The translations under genes were made by a program, and so were the position numbers. Shown here one piece after another: positions 6,392-21,293 of a DNA stretch of 23,000 bases. The DNA is from a virus. The first letter of the stretch is position 1, and every line of letters starts with the position of its first letter. Where the stretch lies: positions 1 through 23,000 of IMG/VR virus record IMGVR_UViG_3300032116_001361. The stretch is one strand, 5' to 3'. The notes under the pieces are model-generated. The model saw only the letters and a program-made list of their open reading frames with translations, was not told where the DNA came from and searched no databases.

Positions 6392-9300
6392 ATGGCTGAC
6401 GAAACAATCAGTACCCGAATAGTCGCTAATGCCGACTTCTCAGCCCTTATTGCCGATGTGCATAAGGTTACTGCCAGCCTATCAAAATTACAAGAACAAT
6501 TAGCTAACTCTAATAAGATGATGGCAAATCAAATTGCCGTCATGAACAGGTCTTTTGCAGACACCTTAAGAAGCACAGGCCAGTTCTCCACACACTTTGT
6601 AAGCCTACAATCAGATGTAGAAAAATTTGGTAAAAATCTAGATGGCGGAAAGTTAAAGTTAAATCAATACTTTAATACATTTAGAGATCATGCTAGAACA
6701 TCTGGCGGACTTATAAGAGAGTTAGCAAAACAACAAGTAGCCCTACAAAATTCAGTATTACAACCGCTAGGCAGAAACGCACAAGGACTTATGCAGTTCA
6801 ATGTGCATGTTCCAAGAGGGCTAGATGAAGTAAAAAATAAATCAGCAATACTAAGACAAGAGATGCAAATCTTGAATAAGGTTATTCAGGATGGTGCAAC
6901 TGGACTTATTAACTGGGGTAAAAATACTCAGTGGGCAGGTCGTCAGTTAACAGTAGGACTAACAGTCCCCCTTGTAGCATTTGGAGCACAAGCTGCTAAA
7001 GCATTTAGAGAAGCTGATCAAGAATTAGTTCGTTTAACTAAGGTTTACGGAGATGTTGCGGGAACTTCAGCAGCAGAATTAGGAAGAGTTAGAAATGAAG
7101 TATCTGCTACTGCAAAAGAAATTTCTGCGGCAATGGGTGTTTCATTTAAAGAAACTATTGGACTTGCAGCGGATATTGCAGCAACTGGCAAAACTGGCGA
7201 TGAACTACTAGGCTCAATTAAAGAAACAACTAGACTCGCAGTACTTGGTGAAGTAGATAGACAAGAAGCAATGAAAGCAACCCTTGCGATTCAGTCTGCA
7301 TTTAAACAAAATACAGATGAGCTTTCAGAATCAATTAACTTCCTTAACGCAGTTGAAAACCAAACATCAACAACTCTTAATGACTTAGTAGAAGCAATTC
7401 CAAAAGCTGGTCCAGTAATTCAAGGACTAGGCGGAAGCGTACAAGACCTTGCCCTTTATCTTACAGCAATGCGTGAGGGCGGTATTAATGCATCAGAAGG
7501 CGCAAACGCATTAAAGTCAGCACTAGCATCTTTAATTAACCCAACAGATGTTGCAGTAGGCAAATTTCAATCTTTAGGAATTGATCTTTTAGGAATTGTA
7601 AATAACAACGCTGGTAATCTAACTGGCACATTAATGGCATTACAGGGAGCGCTAGATAACTTAGATCCATTACAGAAGCAACAAGCAATTGAGCAATTGT
7701 TTGGTAAGTTCCAGTTCTCAAGACTTAATGCTTTATTTGAAAACTTAGGCAGACAAGGAAGCCAGACCTTACAGGTATTAGATCTTATGAAAGCCTCTAC
7801 TGGAGAATTGGCTTCTGTGGCAGATCGAGAATTAGCAGCGGTAACAGAGTCAGCATCTGGTAAATACCGTAGAGCAATTGAAAGTTTAAGAGCATCTTTA
7901 GCTGAAGTCGGAGAGCAATTTTTAACTATCAACACAGTACTTATTCAAGTTATTGACAAGGTTGTTCAGTTTGCTAATAATCTTCCAGGACCAGTAAAAC
8001 AAGTACTGGCTTTGGCTGGAGGATTTACAGCAATAATTGGACCAGTAATTATGTTAACTGGTGTACTTGCTAACTTCTTTGGTTATTTATTAAAGGGTGC
8101 ATTCCACATGAAGTCATTCCTTAAGGGTGGAGAGGGATGGAAATATTTAACTCCAGAAATGTTGGCGGCAGAAAAAGCTGGAAGATTAGTTGAACAATCA
8201 TTTTACAGTGATGCCAAAGCAGCGGCGGTATTACAACAGGCACTGAGAAACCTCCTGGATGAATTTGCATTACTAGAAGCAAAAGCAAAATCAGGAGCAA
8301 TGGCAGTAAATCCAGCAGTATCAACAATGGCTGGCAGCATGATAGTAGGCGGACAAAGAATAGTAAATCCACAACACCCACTTGCAGGTCAAGAAGGAAC
8401 AAGAGCAAGTTCTCACATGGTTCCAAGATCTGGTATGAGCGAAGCACAAAGATTACAGCAAACAATGTTTGGTATGGTTCCAGGATCAATTCCTGTAAAT
8501 CAGAAGATTGGTCAAAACCCACAAATTTATATGAACGAGCCTTTGCCAAATGTTCCTGGGCTTACAACAATTAATGGAGTATCCACAGGTATTGTTTCTG
8601 GAGAAGCTTCTAGATGGCATGCAATGATGGCTACACTTAGCATGCAGTCAAAGGCAGAAATTGAAACATTAAAGAAAACAATTGCAGCCACAGGTACCGT
8701 AAGTAAAGAATTTATGATGCAGTTTGATGATATCTTGCCAGTAGTTTCAAGACTTACAGATAATGCAGCAAGAGAATCTGCAATGATTGTGGCAGAACTT
8801 CGTGCAGGTAAATTAACTGTCGAAGCTGCAAGAGCAAAGATTGTAGCACTTAATCTGCAAACTGAACAGATGATTGCTTCTTCTGTTTCCGCCTCTGCGG
8901 TTTCAATGGGAAGAACAATTAATCCAACAATGGTTCCTACATTAAATCAACCAGTTGTAGATCCTACTGGTAAGTCTAATATGAGAGAGCTATTTAAAAA
9001 GGGTAAGACAAGAGATTTTATTAATAGAATTGCTGGCGTACTTGGAGTAAGAACATCTGGCGCTGGATACAATATTGAAACAACAGTTCCTAAAAAGTTT
9101 GCAACAGGCGGAACTGTAGTTCCTGGGCCAAGGTCGGACACTACAGATACTCAATATATGAATTTAAATGCTGGAGATTTTGTTCTTAATAGAAAAGCAT
9201 CAGACGCCTTACTAGGATTTAATCGTGGCGGACAAGTTCCAGCAATGGTTACTCCTGGAGAAATTGTTGTTCATGACCCAAGCCGTGATGAAATAGATAT

Positions 9301-12300
9301 GCTTTCAGCATACAACAACCAATTTGCAGTAGGCGGAATAGTAAGACCTAACAAAATAAATTATGGCACAATGACTCCTGCAAATGCTCTTTCTATGTTT
9401 AGAGGCGCCGCATCGTTTTTTGGAAATCCTAATTACACCAATAACATGAAAATAGGAACAATTGCTTCAGATGCAGCAATTTTGCACGGAATGGGAATGG
9501 ATCCACAAGCTGCGATTCAAATGGCTTCGGCAGATTATGATGATGCAATCAGATATGCTACAGGCAAAGACGGCACATTTAGTTTAAGTAGATTTACTCA
9601 ACGCAGAAATCAGTTGCTAAGACAAGTTCAACAATATGGATCTTTGATGGGAATTTCTGGAAATCCAATATCGCAATTTACCCCAGGTGGTAAAGGCGCA
9701 AAAAGAGCTGCGGGATTTGGTAGATTTGATTCTGGCATTAAAACAATATATAGCCTACTTATGGGTTCAAATAAATTTGATCCAGAGTCTAAAAAATATT
9801 TAAAGGGGTTAGGTTTACTTAATCCAACTGGAATAAGATCTACAGCACGTGCTCATTTTCAAAGATTTCAAACTCAAGATGTACAGGGACAAGAGTATTT
9901 GTATCAAGCGTCACCAATTCCAGCCCCAGTAAATTCTTTCCTGGCAACTAGTGAAAGTAAAAGACTTGGGAAAGATCTACTTCCTCCAGTAGCAGAAGGA
10001 CGTGGCGGCGCTAAAGGATTCTTTCAAAGAATATTACAAAATGCAGCTTCTCGTGGTGGATATAACAGGGCACAAGTTCCTGCAGCTTCTGATGTATTAG
10101 CGCCATCAAAAAAAGCAACTCCACTTCAAAGAATGTTGCAAGCAGCTTTATCTTCAGCTCTTACAAGAAGACCAATTCCAGTGATGAGAAATTCTGGCGG
10201 TATGATTCCAGGATATAACATGGGCGGGTTAGTTCCTTCTGCAAACGGACAAAAGTATAATCGTGGAGGAAGAGTTCCAGGTGTTCAGTATATGCAACGA
10301 GGCGGTTTCTTAAAAGGCATGCTCGGAGGCGCAGCAATTGGTATGGGCGGACAAATGCTAGGAAACAGCATTGGCGGAGGACTTGGAACTGCTATATCAT
10401 ACGGCTCTTCTATTTTGGGATCTATGATAGGATTTGGCGGAATTGGAAGTAGGGGAGATGAAAAGGGTTCTGGATTTATTGGCAAGCAAATGCAAAAACT
10501 TGATCCAAATTTAACTAAGCCAATTGGACCATTAAATAGTTTATCTACGGCCAGCAAAGGCCTTGCAGGAAATCTTGGCGGAATTGCTAAAATTTTTGGT
10601 CCTGTATTAAGAGGATTTTCAACACTACTAAAACTTACTAGTCCTTTAGGAATAGCAATTACTGGAGTAACTGCCGCTATTGGATTTTTTGTAAAAGCTC
10701 AAAAAGAGAAGGCTGCTGCACTAGAAATAGGAAGACAAGCATTCGGTATGGATGCAGAAGCTGCAAAAAAAGCTGGATTTACATACACAGACTATAATGC
10801 TAAAATTAAAGAAGCAATTTCAAACGCTCAAGCTTTAAAAGAAAGAAATGTTATGATTTACGAAAGCATGACAAAAGCTAACGTTCCAATAAATTTAACA
10901 ATTGAGCAATATAAAAAACTTAAAGAACAAGTAAAAGAAACTATGGGAAGCTACATTCAATTGTTTGATCAAACAAATAGAAAAGATGTTGGCAACGTTG
11001 CCGTTCAGCTAAAGGCGCAGTTTATGGCCGCTGGAGATACAGCAGAAGTTGCTACTGCAAAAATATTTACAATGATTAAAGAATCTAAAAATGCTAGTGC
11101 GGCTGCTCAAGCAATTAGCGCTAGCGCCTTCCAAAGCATTCAAAACATAGAGCAAGCTTCTGCTCAAACAGTAAAAACATATGAAGCAGCAACGAAAACT
11201 GGAGATGCTGAATCTCAAGCAAAAGCTTTACACACAGTGTTTATGGCAATGGATGCCAGTATTGCTTCAGTTGTTGAAGAGCAAAAAAAGCTAGGCGGAA
11301 CGGGAGAAGAGGCTGCAGAAAGAGTAGCTGGCGCAATAAAATCTAAGGTTGCAGAAATAAATAGGCTATTTGGAACACAGGCAACTTTAACTGAAGATGT
11401 TATTTCTGAAATTGGAAAAGCCAACCCGTTACTGGCTGAAATGTTAAATGATACAGATACTTTAAATAGTGCATGGGCTAAATATAGACTAACTCTTAGC
11501 GGAGTTACAATGAATTTTCAGTTTATGAGTGGAGAGGCAGCAATTGCTGCAAATGAATTAAATGAAATTGTAAAGGCTCAAGTTCAACTTAATCCAGCAG
11601 TAAAATCAGCAAACGCAGAATACGGAAAAATGACAGCCAGGATTAAAGATCTTGAAAAAGCACAAAAAGGTCAATCCGTTAAAGCTCAATATAATGCTAA
11701 AGAAGAATCTAAAAGGCTACAAGAGCAAATTGCAGATATTAAAAAAGCTGCTCAAGAAAAAATTGAAGGAATCCGTAAAGCAACTGAGGCAGAAAATACT
11801 CAGCTAGAAATTCAAAAAGCTCAATTAAGAGCCCAGCAAGCGCTTATCCAAGGCAACATGACTGCATATGCTGAAGAGCAGATGACTATTGAGCAGTTGA
11901 TGAATGAGGCTAATCGTAAAGACGCAGAAGAAGCAATTATAGCTAAAGCAGAAATTGATATTAAGCCTCTTCAAGACGCACTAGATGCCATAGCAAATAA
12001 GCAAGAAGCGGTTGCAAAAAAAGCAGCCCTTGCAGGAGACAGCTTGGCAGCAATGAGAACTAAAGCAGATGATTACAATTCTAACTTAACTCAATATACA
12101 ACTAACTTAACTAACTTAATGACAAAGCTTCAAATAGAAGGAGATAAGTTTAAATTAACTAAAGAGTTTACTACCACTATGACGGCACTTGAAACATTGG
12201 GCAAAAACCTAGGAATAAAAACTACTCCACAACAGGTTTTAGATCAAATTGGTGCAGCTCTTTCTAAAAATCAAATTGTAGCAAATCAGGTTAATATATT

Positions 12301-12934
12301 AACAGGCAAAATTAGAGACGGAAGCATAACTGGCGCAGGAACATTTTCAAGTCCTTATAGTTTAGGTCAACAAGGAATTGGAACTAAGGGTGAAATTCAA
12401 GGAGCATCACTAAAAAATTATGGAAACGTTCTAAAAGATTTTGGTGAAACTGGCATTGGGCAAAAGCTTAAGAATTTTGCATACAAACAAGGTTTAGTAA
12501 TGGGAGATTACTTTTCAGCAGAAGACGACAAAGGGCTTGTATCCGTATTTAAGGTAACAGATGAAGATGGAAATATTAAAAGAGTAAAAAATCCTTACGA
12601 AAAGAAATCCCTTGGAGGACAATTTGCGGCAGGAGATAATCTATTAATAAATGATAGAAAGAATGCTTTAGGAACCCAAATAGAGGGTATTGCAATATCT
12701 CCTAATTTCTCTGGAACAGTATATCCAAATGCGGCTACAATGCCTACATATAATATTCCTACTGGTCAAAAAGGTTATGGAGTAAATATATCAAATAGCC
12801 CAAGTAGCAATAATGTGTATGATATAAATATTGTTCTAAATGGAACTAATGTTACGGCAGAAGATGTTATAATTCAGATGAAGAGAGAAATGGCATTGGT
12901 TAACGCAAAAGAAGGAATAAATAGAAGGGTCTAA
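6392..12934 (+). CDS. Tape measure protein
   Basis: A 2180-residue protein, the longest gene here, which sets tail length and may help DNA enter the cell. At about 0.15 nm per residue of helical tape, the tail would be roughly 0.3 micrometre long. Residues 1-150 are helical; about 160-560 match the TP901-type tape measure domain (NWGKNTQWAGRQLTVGLTVP, later LTAMREGGINASEGANALKS). Hydrophobic segments lie at about 538-568, 1310-1350 (Gly-rich) and 1417-1437. Two zones of Gly-Gly/Pro-Gly motifs, each followed by a short loop (about 905-960, with NLNAGDFVLNRKASD and VTPGEIVVHDP; and about 1266-1310), flank an unrecognised region of about 285 residues. A long Lys/Glu/Gln-rich coiled coil spans about 1740-1885. 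The start ATG at 6392 is fixed by an in-frame stop just before it; GAAGGAG (6371-6377) lies 14 bases away, which is rather long. No muramidase or peptidase motif was recognised. Confidence 0.93.
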   Translation: MADETISTRIVANADFSALIADVHKVTASLSKLQEQLANSNKMMANQIAVMNRSFADTLRSTGQFSTHFVSLQSDVEKFGKNLDGGKLKLNQYFNTFRDHARTSGGLIRELAKQQVALQNSVLQPLGRNAQGLMQFNVHVPRGLDEVKNKSAILRQEMQILNKVIQDGATGLINWGKNTQWAGRQLTVGLTVPLVAFGAQAAKAFREADQELVRLTKVYGDVAGTSAAELGRVRNEVSATAKEISAAMGVSFKETIGLAADIAATGKTGDELLGSIKETTRLAVLGEVDRQEAMKATLAIQSAFKQNTDELSESINFLNAVENQTSTTLNDLVEAIPKAGPVIQGLGGSVQDLALYLTAMREGGINASEGANALKSALASLINPTDVAVGKFQSLGIDLLGIVNNNAGNLTGTLMALQGALDNLDPLQKQQAIEQLFGKFQFSRLNALFENLGRQGSQTLQVLDLMKASTGELASVADRELAAVTESASGKYRRAIESLRASLAEVGEQFLTINTVLIQVIDKVVQFANNLPGPVKQVLALAGGFTAIIGPVIMLTGVLANFFGYLLKGAFHMKSFLKGGEGWKYLTPEMLAAEKAGRLVEQSFYSDAKAAAVLQQALRNLLDEFALLEAKAKSGAMAVNPAVSTMAGSMIVGGQRIVNPQHPLAGQEGTRASSHMVPRSGMSEAQRLQQTMFGMVPGSIPVNQKIGQNPQIYMNEPLPNVPGLTTINGVSTGIVSGEASRWHAMMATLSMQSKAEIETLKKTIAATGTVSKEFMMQFDDILPVVSRLTDNAARESAMIVAELRAGKLTVEAARAKIVALNLQTEQMIASSVSASAVSMGRTINPTMVPTLNQPVVDPTGKSNMRELFKKGKTRDFINRIAGVLGVRTSGAGYNIETTVPKKFATGGTVVPGPRSDTTDTQYMNLNAGDFVLNRKASDALLGFNRGGQVPAMVTPGEIVVHDPSRDEIDMLSAYNNQFAVGGIVRPNKINYGTMTPANALSMFRGAASFFGNPNYTNNMKIGTIASDAAILHGMGMDPQAAIQMASADYDDAIRYATGKDGTFSLSRFTQRRNQLLRQVQQYGSLMGISGNPISQFTPGGKGAKRAAGFGRFDSGIKTIYSLLMGSNKFDPESKKYLKGLGLLNPTGIRSTARAHFQRFQTQDVQGQEYLYQASPIPAPVNSFLATSESKRLGKDLLPPVAEGRGGAKGFFQRILQNAASRGGYNRAQVPAASDVLAPSKKATPLQRMLQAALSSALTRRPIPVMRNSGGMIPGYNMGGLVPSANGQKYNRGGRVPGVQYMQRGGFLKGMLGGAAIGMGGQMLGNSIGGGLGTAISYGSSILGSMIGFGGIGSRGDEKGSGFIGKQMQKLDPNLTKPIGPLNSLSTASKGLAGNLGGIAKIFGPVLRGFSTLLKLTSPLGIAITGVTAAIGFFVKAQKEKAAALEIGRQAFGMDAEAAKKAGFTYTDYNAKIKEAISNAQALKERNVMIYESMTKANVPINLTIEQYKKLKEQVKETMGSYIQLFDQTNRKDVGNVAVQLKAQFMAAGDTAEVATAKIFTMIKESKNASAAAQAISASAFQSIQNIEQASAQTVKTYEAATKTGDAESQAKALHTVFMAMDASIASVVEEQKKLGGTGEEAAERVAGAIKSKVAEINRLFGTQATLTEDVISEIGKANPLLAEMLNDTDTLNSAWAKYRLTLSGVTMNFQFMSGEAAIAANELNEIVKAQVQLNPAVKSANAEYGKMTARIKDLEKAQKGQSVKAQYNAKEESKRLQEQIADIKKAAQEKIEGIRKATEAENTQLEIQKAQLRAQQALIQGNMTAYAEEQMTIEQLMNEANRKDAEEAIIAKAEIDIKPLQDALDAIANKQEAVAKKAALAGDSLAAMRTKADDYNSNLTQYTTNLTNLMTKLQIEGDKFKLTKEFTTTMTALETLGKNLGIKTTPQQVLDQIGAALSKNQIVANQVNILTGKIRDGSITGAGTFSSPYSLGQQGIGTKGEIQGASLKNYGNVLKDFGETGIGQKLKNFAYKQGLVMGDYFSAEDDKGLVSVFKVTDEDGNIKRVKNPYEKKSLGGQFAAGDNLLINDRKNALGTQIEGIAISPNFSGTVYPNAATMPTYNIPTGQKGYGVNISNSPSSNNVYDINIVLNGTNVTAEDVIIQMKREMALVNAKEGINRRV

Positions 12935-16746: not shown

Positions 16747-17145
16747 ATGGGAACTCAAGATAAAAGCAAGCCCTCGATAAGTAGCCAACCACACGCTGCC
16801 GCTATTGTTACAGTAGATGGCTCGGAGCTTGATTTTTTTACTAACACTAATTATCTAGCAAAAGAGCTGCCTCAGTTTGCAGCAGCAAGAAACTCTGGTG
16901 GCCTTGGAAGCGACGACATAGATGACAATTTGTCCGAAGAAGAAGAGATCGAAGAAGAAGAAGAGACCGAAGAAGAGGAAGAAGAGGAAAACGATGGTCG
17001 ACCAAGCCTCTCAGATATTGAAGTAGTTTCAAACAAAGTAGTTTTTGACGCAGCAAATAATCCTACAGCAACAGTAATTTTTAAAGTTAAAAACAGCAGT
17101 GGAGTAGAATTAAAAGCAATAAACGTAAGAGTGGAGAAAAAATGA
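16747..17145 (+). CDS. Small acidic tail-module protein with a poly-glutamate spacer, function unknown
   Basis: A 132-residue, strongly acidic protein. Residues 1-56 are an N-terminal region with HAAAIVTVDGSELDFFTNTN and YLAKELPQFAAARNSGG. Residues 57-84 are an acidic spacer (Asp-rich, then 16 Glu broken only by one Ile and one Thr, 64-81). Residues 85-132 are a small basic beta unit (SLSDIEVVSNKVVFDAANNP; ATVIFKVKNSSGVELKAINV) that looks like half of an Ig/FN3-type sandwich. I do not recognise the family. Neighbouring hub and fibre genes, and the four-base overlap with the next gene, suggest a tail-tip adaptor holding a fibre, with the charged rod as a spacer or as a cation-binding segment; this is inference. 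Expression appears to depend on the leaderless promoter just upstream, since the stop of the hub gene lies 17 bases away and no ribosome binding site exists. Confidence 0.72.
   Translation: MGTQDKSKPSISSQPHAAAIVTVDGSELDFFTNTNYLAKELPQFAAARNSGGLGSDDIDDNLSEEEEIEEEEETEEEEEEENDGRPSLSDIEVVSNKVVFDAANNPTATVIFKVKNSSGVELKAINVRVEKK
16936..16989 (+). repeat. GAA/GAG triplet tract coding for poly-glutamate
   Basis: Eighteen successive codons, sixteen of them GAA or GAG, interrupted by ATC and ACC. The purine strand is nearly unbroken, so the tract could change length by in-frame slippage without breaking the gene. Confidence 0.85.
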
Positions 17146-18068: not shown

Positions 18069-21000
18069 ATGGTATATAGAGGAATATTAATTGATGGTGG
18101 CGGGGGAACATCTGACTATCCAAACGATTTAAATAAAAACAATCAGGTAAAAACTGATCAAGATTACTTTACAATTCCTGTTGTTAATTTAAAAATTAAT
18201 CAGACATATTCTTTTAATTTTCAATGGGCTTACCCAGACGGCAGACTAAGTCCTTGGTCAGATGGGCTATCTTTAACAACCGCTAATCTTCCTAGTTTAG
18301 TGCCCCCTAAATTTTTAAATACAGATTTAAGTTATTTTAACGGTCAATTAATTATTACGTGGAATGGATTAGATGCTAACGGTAATCCTTACACAAAAGC
18401 CTTTGACAGAATAAATGTATATATAAAAGATGAAACGTTAATAGGTTCTCCATATAGGTTAGTTGGGTTTTTAAAATCTGCAGGAACTATTCGTGTAGCG
18501 GTTCCCCCTAGAGCCCATAGCGTAAAGTTAACTGTTGTATCAGTAGATGGAACTGAATCTCTTTTTAGCGAAGCGCAATTTGAAACCCCAAAGCTTGTTC
18601 CAAACACTCTTCCTACAGCACTAGGAGCACAGTGGATAGGCTCAGATTTTAAATTAACCTGGACTCATGATCCAGCCGAAGAATTTTTTAGCTACTATAG
18701 AATATCATTAACTTCAACAAGTGGCAATACTACAAAAGTAATAGAAGTTGTTCCAACATCAGGAGTATCTAATCAATCATATGTTCTTAGCTTATCTCAA
18801 AATAAAGCAATGTTTGGTTTAGTTCAAAGAAATATATCAGCCACAATAAAAATTGTAAATATATATGGCAACGAAGGGTCTCCAGTATCTTTTCCAACAG
18901 CAATTTATGCATCTTCTCTTCCAGCCGCAGTAATTACTGCTTCTCCAATAAGCAATGGGTATAGTGTTTTTTATACAATTCCAGCTAATGCAAATTTTTC
19001 TAAAATAGAAATACAGGAAGTTGAGTCATCTGCAACAACAGCACCAACTACTGGATTTTCAACTGTATTTACTGGATCAAGTAATCCAGCAGTTGTAATT
19101 GTTCCAAATACAAACAAGCGGTGGGTTCGTGCTAGGTTTATGGATGACACAGAGGCATTCGGATCCTATGGAGACGCAGTCCAAGTTGAGCCAACAAATC
19201 CAGTTGTTGTAGATAATACTGGCCCAGACAACGTTGCGTCAGTATCAGCAGTAAGTGGAATTGATACAAGCGGATATTTAGGTTTTAATGCTTACGCAGA
19301 TATATCTTGGCCAGCTGTTACAGGTGGCGGATTACGTGGATATAGAATTAGATTTAGCAATGATAATAATACAACATTTTCTTATGTAGATTCTCCAGGA
19401 TCTGGCACTACATATAGGCTCGGCGGTCTTGCGATAGGCGCAGCTTACAAGATTGCAGTTGCTACATACGATGAATATAACAATACATCTTCCGCATATG
19501 TTGCTGGCCCAGATGTTTTAGTTACTGGAACTCCAGCAGTTACTAATTATATTACTGGAGGACCGTTCCAATTTGGAGTAGGAGTCGGTGCTCCAATAAC
19601 AACTACACAATTTACTGTAACAAATAATGGAACAGGCTCATATTCAATAAATGGCACACCATCACTAACATTAACTTTGTCTCGTGGGGTTACCTATACA
19701 TTTAATATTAATGCCCCAGGTCATCCCTTTTATATTCAAACAACAGGAAACGGATACAACGCTTTAAACGTATTTTCTAGCGGAGTTTCTTTGACTTCTG
19801 GCACAAGATCTTCGGGGGTAATTACATTTCAAGTTCCTCAAAATGCACCAGATACACTTTACTATCAGTGCGAATTTCATCCAGCAATGTATGGTCAAAT
19901 AAACATAATTAACTCAACTACTGGGAATAAGGGTCTATACTTTGACGATAGTAACTATTGGTATTTAAATGCATCTAATAGCGCAAGGCTTAAGGTTGGA
20001 GGATCAAACAGCAACTATCTATATTGGGACGGAGCTACGTTTGCTATAGATGGAAACATTACAGCAAGACAAGGAACATTTAGCGGTAATGTAAGTATTG
20101 CATCTGGAGGTTCTTTATATTCAGGAACTCTTACCACCCAAGGGGCGCTTAGCGGTTCTGGATATATATTAAACAATTTAGGGCTTACTTTTAACTCATC
20201 AACAACAAATGGTATAACAACAATAGATGCATCAACAGGATTATTTACAACATCCAGCGCTAATATTGGTGGATGGAATGTTAATTCTTCATCTGTTAGT
20301 AAAACTTCTAATCAAGGAACAATAACCTTAGACTCTTCTAATGCTCAAATAAGAGCTTCAAGTGCTAGTTACACTGCAGGAATTGCCGCTCCAGATTTAA
20401 ATAACGAAGCGGATATTGTTATTTGGGCAGGCGGTCCTAGAAGTACTTCTTCTAATTTTTATGTAACAGCAAACGGAACAGTTGTAATGAAATCAGCTGT
20501 TATTACTGGATATGCTTCTGAAGGCTCAATAGCTGGGCTTGCAAAAACAGATATGAGTAACGTAACCGTTATTGATGGCGCAAAAATAACTACGGGACAA
20601 ATAAAATCTGCTAACCATACAGTTGGAAACGTTTCTCAGCTTCCATTTTCTGGCTCAGGAACATTAATTGATTTAGCTAATGGATCTATTATTACTCCTC
20701 AATTTTATATTGGATCTGACGGAACAGCTCAATTTAGAGGAACTTTATATGCTGGAATATCAATATCTTCTCCAAGCATAACTAGCGGAACTATTGGTGG
20801 AGCAACAATTACTGTTTCTGATTCATTTACTTCAAGTGGTTTAACAGTAGCAAGTGATTCTGGATTAGGAGATGACGATTCTACTTCTGGAGGAACTCAA
20901 ACAACTGTTGGAAATACAACATTTACCCCAACCCTTACCTTAGCTAATGGAAAAATTTCTTCAACTAGCATACTAAAATTAGAAGGCCAAAGTTATACAG

Positions 21001-21293
21001 AGATACTTTCTGGAGGAACACAGTCTGCAATATTTGATTCAACCAAATCTTCTTTAATATTTTCTACTGGACTATATTTAGGAAATCCAAATACATCTTC
21101 AAGTTCTGAGATACAAAACCATTCTACTCCTTACGTTACAGTAGACGCAAGAATGCGTTTAAGAAGAGGTGCTCCATTAACATACCCTAGCGGAAGTACT
21201 GGAGCATACGTTAGAAACATTTATATTAAAAACACAACAAATAACCCATCTCCTACAACAGGTCATGTCGGCGATATCATGATTACGTATTAG
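18069..21293 (+). CDS. Large tail fibre protein with FN3-type repeats and a cupredoxin-like domain
   Basis: A 1074-residue protein of serial beta domains. Residues 1-75 and about 79-490 form FN3-like units; clear examples are GQLIITWNGLDANGNPYTKA (about 92-111) and AYADISWPAVTGGGLRGYRI (about 411-430, followed by a YKIAVATYDEYNN strand). About 495-617 is a cupredoxin-like domain: LTLTLSRGVTYTFNINAPGH, then PFYIQTT, and YYQCEFHPAMYGQINI, with His552, Cys601, His604 and Met607 in the amicyanin C-x2-H-x2-M arrangement. The remaining 450 residues are Gly/Ser/Thr-rich, low in charge and repetitive (FAIDGNITARQGTFSGNVSI; QFYIGSDGTAQFRGTLYAGI; SITSGTIGGATITV), as in fibre shafts that trimerise, ending with TGHVGDIMITY. 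It starts right after the previous stop (TAAATG) with no ribosome binding site, so it probably depends on coupling. It likely reads the host surface. Confidence 0.82.
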   Translation: MVYRGILIDGGGGTSDYPNDLNKNNQVKTDQDYFTIPVVNLKINQTYSFNFQWAYPDGRLSPWSDGLSLTTANLPSLVPPKFLNTDLSYFNGQLIITWNGLDANGNPYTKAFDRINVYIKDETLIGSPYRLVGFLKSAGTIRVAVPPRAHSVKLTVVSVDGTESLFSEAQFETPKLVPNTLPTALGAQWIGSDFKLTWTHDPAEEFFSYYRISLTSTSGNTTKVIEVVPTSGVSNQSYVLSLSQNKAMFGLVQRNISATIKIVNIYGNEGSPVSFPTAIYASSLPAAVITASPISNGYSVFYTIPANANFSKIEIQEVESSATTAPTTGFSTVFTGSSNPAVVIVPNTNKRWVRARFMDDTEAFGSYGDAVQVEPTNPVVVDNTGPDNVASVSAVSGIDTSGYLGFNAYADISWPAVTGGGLRGYRIRFSNDNNTTFSYVDSPGSGTTYRLGGLAIGAAYKIAVATYDEYNNTSSAYVAGPDVLVTGTPAVTNYITGGPFQFGVGVGAPITTTQFTVTNNGTGSYSINGTPSLTLTLSRGVTYTFNINAPGHPFYIQTTGNGYNALNVFSSGVSLTSGTRSSGVITFQVPQNAPDTLYYQCEFHPAMYGQINIINSTTGNKGLYFDDSNYWYLNASNSARLKVGGSNSNYLYWDGATFAIDGNITARQGTFSGNVSIASGGSLYSGTLTTQGALSGSGYILNNLGLTFNSSTTNGITTIDASTGLFTTSSANIGGWNVNSSSVSKTSNQGTITLDSSNAQIRASSASYTAGIAAPDLNNEADIVIWAGGPRSTSSNFYVTANGTVVMKSAVITGYASEGSIAGLAKTDMSNVTVIDGAKITTGQIKSANHTVGNVSQLPFSGSGTLIDLANGSIITPQFYIGSDGTAQFRGTLYAGISISSPSITSGTIGGATITVSDSFTSSGLTVASDSGLGDDDSTSGGTQTTVGNTTFTPTLTLANGKISSTSILKLEGQSYTEILSGGTQSAIFDSTKSSLIFSTGLYLGNPNTSSSSEIQNHSTPYVTVDARMRLRRGAPLTYPSGSTGAYVRNIYIKNTTNNPSPTTGHVGDIMITY

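Follow-up and report, generated by a model that had tools for sequence, protein, structure and literature searches.

The window, a stretch of 23,000 nucleotides from an uncultured virus record (IMG/VR record IMGVR_UViG_3300032116_001361, positions 1 to 23,000), has tail genes in a siphovirus-like order. Downstream of the tape measure gene lie, in order, the genes for a 167-aa tail protein, a 1096-aa minor tail or hub-like protein, proteins of 132 and 308 aa, and a 1074-aa fibre (Table 1). One more protein, with a weak PKD match, is last in the series. The order is identical in Streptomyces phages of the Stanwilliamsviridae, such as Wofford, where gp65 occupies the place of the fibre gene, after the genes for the tape measure and the hub-like minor tail proteins. 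These phages also provide the best matches of the window's hub-like and tape-measure proteins (24-35% identity), and part of the fibre, an fn3-like region, is common to their fibres. The cupredoxin domain described here follows this region and precedes the C-terminal half. At 16747-17145, between the hub-like and fibre genes, a small protein is encoded that includes a glutamate run (EEEEIEEEEETEEEEEEE); its counterpart by position in the Streptomyces phages is a small hypothetical protein.

Table 1. Tail genes and fibre features of the window.
Feature	Position	Strand	Basis
Tape measure	6392-12934		
Tail-fibre / minor tail protein with cupredoxin domain, 1074 aa	18069..21293	+	ORF; phrog_11445 minor tail protein 4.7e-19; phrog_677 1.9e-15
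fn3-like region common to Streptomyces phage fibres, aa 183-474	18615..19490	+	tblastn ~26% identity to Stanwilliamsviridae minor tail proteins; Pfam fn3 aa 411-473
Cupredoxin domain, aa 515-617	19611..19919	+	AlphaFold2 model; Foldseek cupredoxin matches; profile matches
His552, N-terminal copper ligand by alignment	CAT 19722-19724	+	Aligned with His of PF00127 members; CAT/CAT/CAC in three close relatives
Cys601, copper ligand by alignment	TGC 19869-19871	+	Aligned with PF00127 Cys; TGC/TGC/TGT in close relatives
His604, second His ligand by alignment	CAT 19878-19880	+	Aligned with His of PF00127 Cys-His-Met loop; lost jointly with Cys
Met607, axial ligand position, amicyanin-like C-x2-H-x2-M	ATG 19887-19889	+	Aligned with PF00127 Met; Met in 98% of site-bearing homologues
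Variable C-terminal part, aa 901-1074	20769..21290	+	Highest dN/dS of the fibre, 0.32-0.38, in 3/3 pairwise comparisons

The fibre ORF includes NAPGHPFYI and LYYQCEFHPAMYG. The AlphaFold2 model has a mean pLDDT of 90.4, rising to about 97 in the domain, a confident beta-sandwich at residues 515-617. The first histidine directly precedes model strand 57-60, the cysteine ends strand 99-104, and the methionine directly precedes strand 111-117. All of the best 50 PDB matches to the model (Foldseek) are cupredoxins, and the matches include rusticyanin (E 3e-5), Cu nitrite reductase, pseudoazurin with the amicyanin loop, plastocyanin, amicyanin and CuA. The confident model and these matches identify a cupredoxin-type Greek-key beta-sandwich, in which His, Cys, His and Met occur in the order and at the aligned positions of a type-1 site. 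The sequence-only reading had numbered the four ligands exactly, and the codon positions agree. Its interval for the domain, 19560-19920, contains the domain but begins too early, since the first ~17 residues (aa 498-514) are a low-confidence linker in the model.

The similarity to copper proteins was detected with profiles. The window sequence alone finds no real match in the PDB, and in Pfam it finds no PF00127 at E < 1, only PF25489/DUF4352, which is no copper family. PF25489, the At5g54830-like domain, is matched by the domain alone at 28.2 bits, above the gathering cut-off of 27, and by 61 of the 106 relatives from which a family profile was built; its name implies no function. With the NCBIfam amicyanin model (TIGR02657) the window scores 12.7 bits, below the curated cut-off of 110.2. 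The profile of the 106 relatives, when compared with the PDB, matches almost only blue-copper chains (E 3e-4 to 1), and 19 of its members match Pfam Copper-bind directly (best 3.9e-6). In an hhalign comparison with PF00127 members from bacterial genomes, the similarity is significant (E 2.5e-7, probability 93%) and all four ligands are aligned. The cyanophage module family phrog_677 is matched at 2.2e-21 over profile positions 304-411, that is, its C-terminal module only. It is near certain that residues 515-617 are a cupredoxin domain. The four-ligand pattern exceeds a chance motif, given the fold match, the profile matches to blue-copper PDB chains and PF00127, and the recurrence of all four ligands in homologues down to 28-35% identity to the window. 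The profile comparisons and the structure prediction thus bear out the earlier proposal of a cupredoxin domain within the fibre, with a complete type-1 ligand set in the amicyanin spacing.

Amicyanin, plastocyanin and pseudoazurin (PF00127 Copper-bind) share with the domain the eight-stranded sandwich and a His followed by Cys-x2-His-x2-Met, with the ligands aligned by hhalign. However, these proteins are soluble electron carriers, whereas the window domain is one module within a viral fibre. Rusticyanin is among the top Foldseek matches (TM 0.59 by query) but has only about 23% sequence identity, and its C-terminal loop is longer.

Among named phages, the module is present in 346 records, 339 of them cyanophage; the others are marine and Pelagibacter records, an uncultured virus and one Actinomycetia phage. 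This agrees with the earlier statement that related modules appear in structural proteins of aquatic phages. IMG/VR yields, at the least, over 500 candidates. The carriers are baseplate, fibre and fibre-connector proteins, and also subtilase fusions. Modules homologous to the window domain, with the ligands retained, belong to virion structural proteins of T4-like cyanophages: that of gp9, the 'baseplate wedge tail fibre connector' (phrog_677), and others related to it in fibres. Among cultured cyanophages, S-ShM2 and P-SSM2 are examples with the site in gp9. Unlike the window fibre, gp9 is a different protein in a contractile tail, and it has no copper-protein annotation. In baseplate wedge extra copies of S-ShM2 (L219, 4286-7840) and P-HM1 (gp7, L224), the module is very divergent and retains His, Cys, His and Met. 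In S-H9-1 (L221, 2231-4237) an intact copper-site module is at the C-terminus of a protein with a subtilase (Peptidase_S8) domain by Pfam. An intact copper-site module is also C-terminal in ACG-2014e (L223, 1180-3240), one protein of which carries the BFVD name Peptidase S8/S53. In the Prochlorococcus phage P-SSM5 (L218, 4515-6194), the module is flanked on both sides by long collagen-like Gly-Pro repeats. Sensitive profile search did not find the module in the fibres of the soil Streptomyces phages Wofford and Riptide. As these phages have the same tail order and the region of aa 183-474 in common with the window, the module was either gained in the window's lineage or lost in the soil phages.

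Bacterial members of the family have signal-peptide or lipobox-like starts. They are single domains or form the C-terminus of CHRD or Lipoprotein_15 repeat proteins, and one weakly matches amicyanin, halocyanin, plastocyanin and rusticyanin models. Their ligands are nearly invariant (35/37 clusters complete). By sequence, the fibre domain belongs to the cupredoxin superfamily and has a complete predicted type-1 site, in a family that includes secreted or lipid-anchored bacterial proteins.

Because ordinary searches favour motif-bearing sequences, extra homologue searches were run with the ligands and neighbouring residues masked. In the masked scan nearest the window, which is the least biased, the 62 clusters divide into 37 complete and 25 incomplete; the masked scan of cyanophage type has 47 complete clusters among 51. 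The incomplete clusters indicate that ligand-free relatives are real. All scans were pooled and clustered at 80%, giving 186 representatives, a set partly biased to complete sites. His, Cys and His are all present in 161 of these, one or none is present in 25, and exactly two are present in none. Two apparent two-of-three cases had been set aside as artefacts before this count: in L358 the alignment displaces the His by two positions, and in L371 the ORF is cut off after the Cys. About 52 representatives with two would be expected under independent loss, a guide figure only, owing to shared ancestry. The tree requires a minimum of nine losses, at least three of them forced by well-supported branches. 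In six distinct proteins a degenerate copy adjoins an intact one; fragment matches in L169, L152 and L168 were judged to be false, not cupredoxin. L191 is an example of paired copies, with QSGM in copy 1 and HCHM in copies 2-3. Conservation of the core residues Gly540, Tyr543, Pro594, Tyr599 and Gly609 is the same whether the site is present or absent. This equal conservation, together with the all-or-none loss, suggests that the fold is independent of the ligands and that the site is one selected unit. Most lineages retain the site even though the fold can do without it. The repeated all-or-none loss, often in extra copies, argues for a metal site that would be working where it is present.

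These results bear on whether the domain is a plain beta-sandwich spacer, an Ig-like building block of the fibre whose ligands are a functionless remnant of a cellular ancestor. Indeed, fn3/Ig-like modules are abundant in fibres, and ligand-free modules exist that retain the core residues. However, a relic should decay residue by residue, and the class with exactly two ligands is empty. Moreover, the ligands persist to the low identities given above across unrelated phages, and in close relatives the ligand codons show synonymous changes only (CAT/CAC, TGC/TGT). We therefore regard a plain spacer as unlikely. The sequence-only reading had also argued from ligand retention against a fold relic; that argument stands in that selection keeps the site, and needs tempering in that ligand-free homologues are found, so that conservation among homologous fibres is widespread and not universal.

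Selection along the fibre was assessed by dN/dS in all three pairings among the window and the two relatives nearest to it. Each pairing gives the same extremes along the fibre: the minimum (0.08-0.13) in the cupredoxin domain and the maximum in the final 174 residues. The domain is under strong purifying selection, and the variable C-terminal part is likely the distal receptor-binding end. As the domain is the most constrained segment and the far C-terminus the most variable, the domain is probably not the host-range tip, and the receptor contact suggested earlier becomes less likely as a fibre-tip role. The low dN/dS suits a conserved shaft function better than a strain-specific receptor tip. 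High conservation could partly stem from packing against neighbouring fibre chains.

A different form of contact would be mediated by copper itself: a host protein of copper or metal uptake, or of electron transfer, would recognise the metal on the fibre, as in a copper Trojan horse. In known cupredoxins the second His is exposed at the docking surface. A precedent is offered by iron-carrying fibres, proposed to exploit uptake receptors (PMC11705849). However, no other part of the fibre is as conserved as this domain, which is thus unlike variable host-range tips, and the module occurs in phages of unrelated hosts, which makes one shared receptor unlikely. This explanation ranks next after the spacer and is likewise improbable. 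The iron on tail fibres is the nearest published idea: metal carriage was proposed for the HxH iron-binding tail fibres of Alteromonas phage R22Y (PMC11705849), but motif, metal and fold all differ from those of the window domain. The YHYH domain, a predicted Zn hydrolase with a His triad plus Asp (PMC7824862), is also tail-associated with a predicted metal site, but has a different ligand set. In the open-access literature we found no paper describing the module as a copper domain; an earlier mention elsewhere is possible.

The isolated domain probably binds copper. The reading we favour as a whole, and hold to be probable, is that the fibre displays a predicted copper-binding domain that acquires its metal once outside the host; copper binding, the time of loading and the role in the virion are the parts of it that we infer. 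The domain would be synthesised metal-free inside the host, whose cytoplasm contains little free copper, and would take up copper during or after lysis. The bound copper would then fix the exposed Cys-His-Met loop, producing a rigid conserved surface that might steady the fibre or make a general, non-strain-specific contact with the cell envelope. Such a structural or general-contact role fits best; a copper Trojan horse or a redox role is a lesser possibility. That the virion carries copper, and that copper matters to it, is plausible, with chances somewhat better than even. Against the favoured reading, the cytoplasm is not the usual place of metal filling for type-1 sites, and the ligand-free clade shows that the module can persist metal-free.

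Alternatively, the site might hold a different soft metal, for instance Zn(II) or Cu(I), that clamps the structure. The four ligands are compatible with Zn, which cupredoxin sites can accept in vitro. However, copper is favoured by the conservation of Met and by how closely the domain matches Cu families, and a clamp of this kind seems quite improbable. Least probable of all, and by our estimate very unlikely, is a redox or protective role in which Cu(I)/Cu(II) cycling oxidises surface thiols or scavenges radicals or toxic copper near the virion: the C-x2-H-x2-M loop is of the electron-transfer type, the nearest folds are electron carriers and some cyanophage copies are fused to subtilase domains, but neither a partner protein nor an electron path is visible.

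Copper-carrying tail fibres among water-dwelling phages are a realistic possibility on these comparisons. The wider proposal, that aquatic phages as a class have working fibre copper proteins and use copper in attachment or entry, through redox chemistry or a host copper or electron-transfer protein, is doubtful. If the site is filled, virions that carry metal would be common in both sea water and fresh water, dissolved copper may influence how infective phages are, and iron would no longer be the sole metal proposed on tails. The family also provides a natural experiment: the module exists in homologous copies that have the site and others that lack it, in some cases within a single protein, which allows the role of the metal to be compared directly. 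In the ligand-free clade, for which a structure model (pLDDT 62, 12 sequences) was set aside for low confidence, two ORFs (L248, aa 162-377, and L233, aa 168-384) appear to have a full module between the N-terminal and C-terminal halves of another, as if one cupredoxin domain had been inserted into a second. The fold is also matched by small 'beta-sandwich proteins' of 124-169 aa in Pithovirus/Marseillevirus metagenome records (BFVD A0A481Z6J5, A0A481Z7Q7 and A0A481YVH3), which are possible free-standing cupredoxins of giant viruses.
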